This document shows, in pieces, positions 362 to 2,788 of a stretch of DNA of 64,000 nucleotides. Below the pieces are notes generated by a model. The model was given only the letters and a program-made list of their open reading frames with translations. It was not told where the DNA came from and ran no database searches. The stretch comes from Rhodocaloribacter litoris. GTDB lineage: Bacteria > Bacteroidota > Rhodothermia > Rhodothermales > ISCAR-4553. The stretch spans positions 2,215,793 to 2,279,792 of the forward strand of contig NZ_CP076718.1 of assembly GCF_011682235.2 (NCBI RefSeq), written 5' to 3'. A program made the translations under genes and the position numbers. How positions within the stretch are numbered: the stretch's first letter is position 1; each line of letters starts with the position of its first letter.

Positions 362-1360
362 TCAGGGGAAACCGGTGGGAGGGGCCTCGGGCCGGCGCTC
401 GGCCAGGCGGAGGCGCGCACTCCGCGCCCGGGGGTTGGCGGCCCGCTCGGCGTCGCCGGGCAGAACCGGGTGACGCGTCAACTCCCGCCAGGGGGAAAGC
501 AGGTTGCCGTAGAGGTCCCGGACCGGGCGCCCCTCCAGGTTGCCGTACCGGAGCATCCGCTTCACCCGCCGGTCTTCGAGCGAGTGGTAGCTGATGACGG
601 CGAGGCGACCGCCGGGACGCAGCACCCGGGCCGCACCGGCCAGCAACCGTTCCAGGGCCTCCAGTTCGCCGTTGACGGCGATGCGGATGGCCTGGAAGAC
701 CCGGGCCAGGGTCTTCACCTCGTCCCGGGCCGGGGTGACGCGCCGCACGACGTCCGCCAGTGCCGTCGTCGTTGCCAGCGGCCGGGCCGCCACGATGGCC
801 CGGGCGATATGCGCCGCCCGGGGCTCCTCGCCGTAGACCCGCAACACCCGGCGCAGCGCCTGCTCTTCCCAGGCGTTGACGACGTCGCTGGCCGTGTAGC
901 CGGTGTGCGGGTTCATCCGCATGTCGAGCGGCCCCTCGGTCCGAAAGCTGAAGCCCCGTTCCGGCGTGTCGAACTGGTGCGAGGACACCCCCAGGTCCGC
1001 CAGCACGCCGTCCACGGGCCCCTGCCCGCCTTCGGCCAGCAGCGCTTCCAGCTCGGCGAAGTTGCCTTCGACGAGGTGCAGGCGCCCCCGCTCGATCTCG
1101 GCCGGCAGGCGCGCCCGGACGGCCGCCAGCGCCGCGGGATCCCGGTCGAGACCGATGACCCGCCCCCCGGGCGCAAGCACGTCGAGCAGGGCCGCCGTGT
1201 GCCCTCCGCCGCCGAGCGTGGCATCCACATACACCCCGTCCGGATCGGTCACGAGGCCCTCTACTACAGCCTTGCAAAGAACGGGCGCATGGTAGCCGGT
1301 GGCGTACCGCATCGGGTCCGCCGGCCCCCGTGCGTCGTCATGGTCTGGTTCAGCATGCAT
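362..1360 (-). CDS. rsmH: 16S rRNA (cytosine(1402)-N4)-methyltransferase RsmH
   Basis: A 332-aa protein that methylates N4 of C1402 in 16S rRNA near the P site, using SAM. The N-terminal GYHAPVL motif is typical of RsmH/MraW. The SAM-binding glycine loop [10 protein letters not shown] follows at about residues 47-56, and the family signatures [12 protein letters not shown] and [12 protein letters not shown] are both present. The ATG begins one base after the mraZ TGA (TGAGATG arrangement), so the two genes are almost certainly co-transcribed and translationally coupled. Length and motifs are complete and I see no damage. Confidence 0.97.
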
Positions 1361-1361
1361 C

Positions 1362-1805
1362 TCATACCCCCATCACCTGCTCGGCCAGCGTCTCATACCG
1401 CTCGGCCTTGCTGTTGATGTAGGCGTCGAACAGCTCCGGATTCCAGATCTCGATATGATCGAGGGCGCCGATGATGAGCGCCTTGTCGGTGATCCGGGCA
1501 TAGTCCATCAGGGTCTCCGGAATCCGGACGCGCCCCTGCCCGTCCAGCGTGACTTCCTCCGCCCACATGAGGATGATCCGCACGAAGTCACGCGACTCCC
1601 GCTGGTACAGGTTCAACTGCTCGAACTCATCCTCGATCGCCTCCCACTTGTCAAGCGGATACAGGAAGATGCACTGCTCGAAGCCACGGGTGATGGTGAA
1701 GGTGTTCTTGGCCTCCGGGTTCATGGCACTGCGCATCTTGGCCGGGATCGCGACGCGACCCTTGCTGTCGACCGAGTACGATGCCTGTCCTTTGAAGCGC
1801 GCCAT
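1362..1805 (-). CDS. mraZ: transcriptional regulator MraZ of the division cluster
   Basis: A 147-aa DNA-binding regulator made of two SpoVT/AbrB-like half-domains: [15 protein letters not shown] near the N-terminus and [15 protein letters not shown] in the middle. In other bacteria MraZ binds repeated TGGG-containing boxes ahead of its own gene and regulates the cluster. I prefer the ATG at 1805 (MARFKGQ), the usual family start, over the in-frame ATG at 1835, which adds a non-conserved MGAGKTGRGI extension. It heads the minus-strand operon with rsmH, and the expected boxes are visible upstream at 1862-1888. Confidence 0.95.
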
Positions 1806-1861: not shown

Positions 1862-1957
1862 CCCCACAATTCCCCACACCTCCCCCAAGGTACATCATGG
1901 ATCCGAAAAGTCAAGGTTTTCGAGGCGTAAATAAGGATTTTTTCCCACAGAGACCCC
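1862..1957 (-). promoter_or_regulatory. MraZ-box repeats upstream of mraZ
   Basis: Read on the minus strand, 1862-1888 contains three G-rich units in 10-bp register (TTGGGGGAGG, TGTGGGGAAT, TGTGGGGAAA). A further related unit (CTGTGGGAAA) lies at about 1943-1951. Repeats of GTGGG-like boxes with about 5-bp spacers are the known MraZ operator, bound by the doughnut-shaped oligomer. The position 60-150 bp ahead of mraZ fits autoregulation. The sequence pattern is seen directly; binding is inferred. Confidence 0.7.
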
Positions 1958-2086: not shown

Positions 2087-2140
2087 CCCGCCGTATTTTG
2101 CCCCTGTCCTCCCCGCTGCACATATATCCGTCCTCCCTGT

Positions 2141-2788
2141 ATGAAAGCCCGGCTCACGGAACGCCAGAACGAAACCTTCGAGTTCATCCGTGCCTACATG
2201 CGGCGGCACCGGAAGCCGCCGACCCTCCAGGAAATCGGCACGGCACTGGGCGTTCGCTCGGTCAACGCGGTCTCGAAGCTGGTGCGGGCCCTGGAGCAGA
2301 AAGGGTACCTGGAACGGGAGGCCCACGCCGCCCGGGGGCTCCGCCTGGTCGACATGGACGAGGACCCCTTCCGCCTGGACGACCCCGCGCCCAGCCTGCT
2401 CGTCGTCAGCCGCACCGCCAGCCATGCACCGGAGCGGTTACGCGAACGCCCGAGCGGCTTCCTCACGGTGGATCCCTACTTCCTGCGCGGCGTCCGGGAA
2501 CCCGAGCACTGCCTCATCGCCCGCGCCGGGGACGACGGCATGAACGGCGACGGCATCCACAAGGGCGACTTTCTGATCGTCGAAGAGATGCGCTGGAAAG
2601 ACCTGCGGAACGGCGAGGTGGCGGCCGTCCTCATCGAAGAAGCCCTCCACGCCCGCCGGTTCTTCTTCGCCAACGGACGGCTACACCTCCGCCCGGCCGA
2701 CCGCAACTACACCGAGGAGACGTTTGCGCCGGACGACCCGCGCTGCCACGTCATCGGCCGCGTCATCGGGGTGATGCGGCGCCTCTGA
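2141..2788 (+). CDS. LexA-like repressor without autocleavage residues
   Basis: A 215-aa protein with a LexA N-terminal winged helix (LTERQNETFEFIRAYM ... PPTLQEIGTALGVRS ... GYLEREAHAARGLRL). Its C-terminal half has the peptidase-S24 fold pattern. The active site is gone. The canonical GDSM serine loop reads AGDDGMNGDGI, with no Ser and one extra residue; the catalytic Lys region reads LHARRFF instead of a VKR-type motif; the Ala-Gly scissile bond aligns with SH in SRTASHAPER. It should therefore bind DNA and dimerise but not self-cleave with RecA. A comparable loss is known in Synechocystis LexA, which regulates non-SOS genes. It is divergent from mraZ. Confidence 0.85.
   Translation: MKARLTERQNETFEFIRAYMRRHRKPPTLQEIGTALGVRSVNAVSKLVRALEQKGYLEREAHAARGLRLVDMDEDPFRLDDPAPSLLVVSRTASHAPERLRERPSGFLTVDPYFLRGVREPEHCLIARAGDDGMNGDGIHKGDFLIVEEMRWKDLRNGEVAAVLIEEALHARRFFFANGRLHLRPADRNYTEETFAPDDPRCHVIGRVIGVMRRL

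Follow-up and report, generated by a model that had tools for sequence, protein, structure and literature searches.

The window, i.e. the whole stretch of 64,000 nucleotides analysed here from the Rhodocaloribacter litoris genome, contains on its forward strand an open reading frame of 215 amino acids, with its ATG at 2141 and its stop codon ending at 2788. The frame is intact and divergent from mraZ, as the initial annotation had described. Its product is called pseudo-LexA below. The host genome is a single contig of 4.5 Mb, and the nearest named relatives found were a Rhodothermales metagenome-assembled genome and Roseithermus sacchariphilus. The features of the locus are as follows.

362–1360, reverse strand: rsmH (mraW), second dcw gene, above the TIGR00006 cut-off
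1362–1805, reverse strand: mraZ, first dcw gene, MraZ equivalog TIGR00242 (128.9 bits, cut-off 98.35)
1862–1888, reverse strand: TGGGG repeats resembling MraZ boxes, period 10 bp, on the downstream side of the mraZ −10 (from the sequence)
1887–1892, reverse strand: predicted mraZ −10, TACCTT, with a 16-bp spacer to the −35 (consensus and conservation)
1909–1914, reverse strand: predicted mraZ −35, TTGACT (consensus and conservation)
2016–2033, no strand assigned: candidate operator 1 (mraZ side), GGTGATATTATTTACACC, matching the family consensus GGTGAAAATATTTTCACC
2070–2087, no strand assigned: candidate operator 2, on the pseudo-lexA side, AGTGAAAAAATATTCACC; distance to operator 1 54 bp, equal to five helical turns
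2094–2099, forward strand: candidate pseudo-lexA −10, TATTTT, 6 bp past operator 2
2141–2788, forward strand: pseudo-lexA, LexA-like regulator predicted from its sequence to be non-cleavable (Ser94-His95, Gly133, Arg172)

Beyond mraZ and rsmH the genome continues with genes for an FtsI-type PBP, murE, mraY, murD, ftsW, murC and ftsZ, making up a full dcw cluster.

Domains and lost cleavage residues of pseudo-LexA

Both halves of a LexA protein were recognised in the reading frame. The winged helix LexA_DNA_bind (PF01726) scored 65.9 bits against a cut-off of 23.7, in agreement with the normal LexA DNA-binding half noted in the initial annotation, and Ser39 and Asn41 of the recognition helix are retained. 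The C-terminal Peptidase_S24 domain (PF00717) scored 49.4 bits against a cut-off of 23.3. Residues were mapped by alignment to E. coli LexA (1jhf) and with MAFFT. Ser94-His95 was found at the scissile Ala84-Gly85, Gly133, within GDDGM, at the catalytic Ser119 and Arg172, which belongs to A170-R-R, at the catalytic Lys156; the cleavage bond, the Ser and the Lys are thus all missing. The same three losses had been claimed at the outset and are verified by this alignment, in which Gly and Arg take the places of the catalytic Ser and Lys. With neither the Ser-Lys dyad nor the Ala-Gly bond left, pseudo-LexA cannot be inactivated through RecA-stimulated cleavage, and any inducer must therefore be something else, such as a ligand, a partner, the protein level or proteolysis. 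We infer that the protein does not cleave itself.

Scored against the NCBIfam LexA equivalog (TIGR00498), pseudo-LexA reached 98.4 bits, below the cut-off of 110.95. Its best structural and sequence matches are canonical LexA proteins (E. coli 1jhf and T. maritima 3k2z), and Foldseek matched the overall fold of an AlphaFold2 model to LexA chains. The model, made from eight sequences, has a pLDDT of 61.5, too low for the former active site (residues 130–138 fall below 50), and was used for the overall fold only.

One other LexA is encoded in the same genome, at G000:C1:615461-616057. It keeps Ala-Gly, Ser and Lys and scored 120.3 bits, above the equivalog cut-off of 110.95. The second, canonical lexA which the initial annotation had proposed looking for is therefore present. 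The proposal that pseudo-LexA is not SOS-inducible by the known mechanism, and is perhaps constitutive or otherwise controlled, gains support both from the three losses and from this separate gene.

Conservation across the order and the phylum

Fifty close homologues of pseudo-LexA were found among 114 genomes of the order, with scores clearly apart from those of the canonical copies. Of the 50, 48 have Gly in place of the Ser and 49 have Arg in place of the Lys, the remaining row being a truncated reading. These substitutions, and the context with them, are shared by about 50 genomes of the order, which goes far beyond chance. Across the phylum, Arg at K156 together with Asp at E. coli Gly117 was present in 74/74 pseudo-LexAs compared with 0/29 canonical LexAs, all 29 of which retain Ala, Gly, Gly117, Ser and Lys. 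Nearly all of the 74 have lost the Ala-Gly bond, and GDDGM and the Arg are near-invariant. Three pseudo-LexAs (L141, L170, L171) keep Ser119 but have Lys replaced by Arg, and are possible evolutionary intermediates.

The dN/dS ratio is low in both domains of pseudo-LexA and is about 0.05–0.09 in the C-terminal domain for most pairs of close relatives with informative dS, so purifying selection acts on the dead peptidase domain. In a maximum-likelihood tree, a single branch divides 50 pseudo-LexAs from 30 canonical LexAs with an SH-aLRT of 98 by a quick method, in line with a single origin of the pseudo-LexAs.

The gene is divergent from mraZ-rsmH in 47/50 members of the order, and the same arrangement occurs in other classes of the phylum. 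In many relatives pyrG lies downstream of pseudo-lexA in convergent orientation. Further members adjoining mraZ were found in families f34, f36, f40 and f54; those of f31, f52 and f57 are not adjacent to mraZ. Judged by sequence and gene order, the mraZ-linked pseudo-LexA is a conserved, phylum-wide subfamily. Searches of a library of open-access papers turned up neither a LexA-like protein tied to mraZ nor a Rhodothermus/Salinibacter or Rhodothermaeota LexA of such kind.

Candidate operators and promoters between pseudo-lexA and mraZ

Two copies of the 18-bp palindrome GGTGAAAATATTTTCACC are common to the upstream regions of these genes. There are 91 sites in 50 regions and about 2 after shuffling, a contrast which is partly circular because the motif was built from the same upstream regions. 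As an independent test, a scan of the 4.5-Mb host genome allowing up to two mismatches found only the sites at 2016–2033 and 2070–2087 plus one weak AT-rich match. The interval 2015–2086 had earlier been guessed as the operator region and closely spans these two palindromes. By pattern search, on which all the operator counts are based, 38 of 42 matches lie in the pseudo-lexA/mraZ intergenic region, in 24 genomes. The 24 are those in which the pattern matched one or more times at the locus (for G051 and G053, at mraZ); gene-bearing genomes lacking a match there, such as G014 and G017, are excluded. Matches in G003, G014, G017, G074 and G096 are elsewhere than mraZ. The arrangement used to define the subfamily, a divergent mraZ with paired palindromes in between, is found at the pseudo-lexA locus. 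In family f40, related paired palindromes, ACTGAACA-N2/3-TGTTCAGT, were read by eye upstream of the gene. A global regulator or an SOS regulon was rejected on the genome-wide operator scans.

Two genomes separate the operators from the gene. In G051, a draft genome which is 87% complete, an intact pseudo-lexA is on another contig with no operators upstream of it, and both operators stay at mraZ, 116 bp from the −35, with a convergent hydrolase gene beyond them. In G053 an in-frame TGA interrupts pseudo-lexA, which is some 500 bp distant, and both operators are still 108 bp from the mraZ −35. The operators therefore follow mraZ and not the regulator gene.

The mraZ promoter, TTGAC[AT]-N16-TACCTT or near variants, was recognisable in 34/50 loci and is followed by TGGGG repeats resembling MraZ boxes in 45/50. 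On the other side, only 26/46 loci have a recognisable TANNNT hexamer, resembling a −10, at 0–7 bp past the proximal operator. With the candidate −10 of the host locus only 6 bp after operator 2, this operator would cover the pseudo-lexA promoter.

Spacings between the two operators are 22, 31–33, 41–43 and 54 bp, corresponding to between two and five turns of the helix. The nearer operator lies 85–86, 96–99, 104–109, 117 or 129 bp from the mraZ −35, the operators of the host locus being about 107 bp upstream, and the five length classes keep the same phase. The best period is 10.65 bp, with p about 1e-4 against a uniform null or 0.001 for distinct values, both weakened because shared ancestry makes the values non-independent and phylogeny is not considered in the uniform null. 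Between operator and pseudo-lexA ATG no period was seen (p 0.5).

Several other elements were seen in these and related promoters. In many relatives (L037, L043, L047, L051, L053, L110, L068) a second conserved element, approximately TGTCCA-N4-ATGTGCACAT, is placed between operators and mraZ promoter; it somewhat resembles sequences found upstream of recA of the Salinibacter type. The canonical lexA promoters of the order (L083-L092, L197-L216) have TGTGTGGNNCATGTG in common just past the −10; it is a candidate SOS operator and is quite unlike the pseudo-LexA palindrome. The EM motif obtained for the canonical lexA promoters was tATacTGTGTggaacATgTG mixed with a −10; it had scattered, mostly weak matches in mraZ intergenic regions and no consistent matches at recA. 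Many recA promoters outside the Salinibacter-like group (L178-L189, L194) have TGACAC-N5-TGACAC or TGACA-N6-TGTCAC, not the lexA-type motif. Family f14 has two adjacent canonical lexA genes (L092, L216; genomes G105-G107), and G062 has two recA genes (L195 and C6:104627-105580), both above the family cut-off.

Interpretation and known systems

Of the defining features of LexA that were tested, the two domains are present and five others were not found: Ala-Gly, Ser119, Lys156, a score above the equivalog cut-off and operators at several SOS genes. Pseudo-LexA is thus not LexA in the SOS sense. The reading we favour, with a probability of roughly three in four, is that it acts as a RecA-independent regulator of a single locus, controlling mraZ and the dcw cluster and also repressing itself. 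Its S24 domain would be frozen as a non-proteolytic module for dimerisation or sensing. A pseudo-LexA dimer would bind the two palindromic operators between its own gene and mraZ, and by covering its own promoter would give autorepression. Bound cooperatively and in helical phase some 107 bp ahead of the mraZ −35, pseudo-LexA could then modulate mraZ and the dcw cluster directly. Because the operators lie at least 85 bp upstream of the −35 and not on it, such control needs looping or activation, and it may involve joint action or looping with MraZ at the boxes just downstream of the mraZ −10.

The operators could instead serve pseudo-lexA alone with mraZ a passive neighbour, given that the operator nearer to pseudo-lexA lies right against the probable promoter of that gene and that both operators are over 85 bp away from the mraZ −35. 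However, the operators are in constant helical phase to the mraZ promoter and not to the pseudo-lexA start codon, they remained with mraZ where the gene moved or broke (G051, G053), and a pure self-regulator would hardly be conserved beside the dcw cluster across classes. Autoregulation alone is accordingly improbable. It is far harder to regard the protein as an unusual SOS repressor which is still self-cleaving, or inducible by DNA damage, through other residues. LexA descent, the Ser kept in three relatives and the sequences resembling lexA promoters, of uncertain meaning, in some mraZ intergenic regions would fit such a repressor, but the general-base Lys is Arg in 74/74, hardly any keep Ala-Gly, no other gene of the host genome has the operator bar the one weak match and the genome also encodes a canonical LexA. 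That the gene is a functionless lexA duplicate in decay is barely credible. Decay would account for the disappearance of all catalytic determinants and for the in-frame stop in one relative, G053, but not for low dN/dS in both domains, near-invariant GDDGM and Arg, or conserved synteny and operators. A decaying pseudogene was rejected on dN/dS and conservation, since selection on the coding sequence was found.

The single-locus regulator reading can be refined by supposing that the former active site (Asp131, Asp132, Gly133, Arg172) has become a ligand pocket controlling DNA binding. All 74 sequences have Asp at G117 and Arg at K156 despite lost catalysis, which suggests a new role for this site. 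On the other hand, the confidence of the model is low exactly there (residues 130–138, pLDDT <50), no ligand is known, and the Asp and Arg residues could be purely structural; the refinement is less likely than not. In a fuller version, pseudo-LexA would be a RecA-independent sensor that recognises a cellular signal through its remodelled active site (Asp131/Asp132/Arg172) and, together with MraZ, loops the DNA in phase across the mraZ promoter to set dcw expression; this is speculative and rather unlikely. If true, an old DNA-damage switch would have become a dedicated governor of the division operon in several classes of one phylum.

LexA couples DNA damage to division, usually indirectly via a division inhibitor, and to our knowledge little is known of mraZ control other than by MraZ itself. 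Here a LexA copy apparently freed from RecA heads the division and cell-wall cluster in the whole order and in several other classes. It is a second, testable candidate regulator of mraZ with exact candidate operators. Automatic annotation may label many pseudo-LexAs as 'LexA', so that the SOS status of their genomes is misread.

Pseudo-LexA shares its two-domain architecture and fold with canonical LexA and probably works like it as a dimeric, palindrome-binding regulator. Canonical LexA has Ala-Gly, Ser, Lys and an SOS regulon, whereas pseudo-LexA is without all three residue features and has its operators at one locus. MraZ, which acts at the mraZ promoter via repeated boxes upstream of the dcw cluster (PMC8475190), is an unrelated protein whose own TGGGG boxes, downstream of the −10, are apart from the palindromes. 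The non-canonical Bacteroidetes LexA keeps Ala-Gly and Ser-Lys, has a phage-type helix-turn-helix and serves the SOS response (PMC8565304). The likeness is that both are S24-family regulators with atypical features from related bacteria; that paper has no mention of Rhodothermus, Salinibacter or mraZ. IrvR of Streptococcus mutans is a LexA-like regulator free of RecA control which undergoes RecA-independent autocleavage (PMC7101444). It resembles pseudo-LexA in its independence of RecA and differs in having retained autocleavage and in its targets. The nearest functional precedent is LexA of Synechocystis sp. PCC 6803, which lacks Ala-Gly and the catalytic Ser, as pseudo-LexA does, and has a non-SOS role; it is described as a general repressor acting on many genes, and phosphorylation has been suggested to control it (PMC3091678, PMC7567884). 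The cyanobacterial precedent offered in the initial annotation thus holds for the missing residues but not for the regulatory range, as the Synechocystis protein regulates many genes. In pseudo-LexA the Lys of the dyad is also replaced and the protein coexists with a canonical LexA, whereas Synechocystis LexA is not reported as tied to mraZ and is not a paralogue devoted to one operon.
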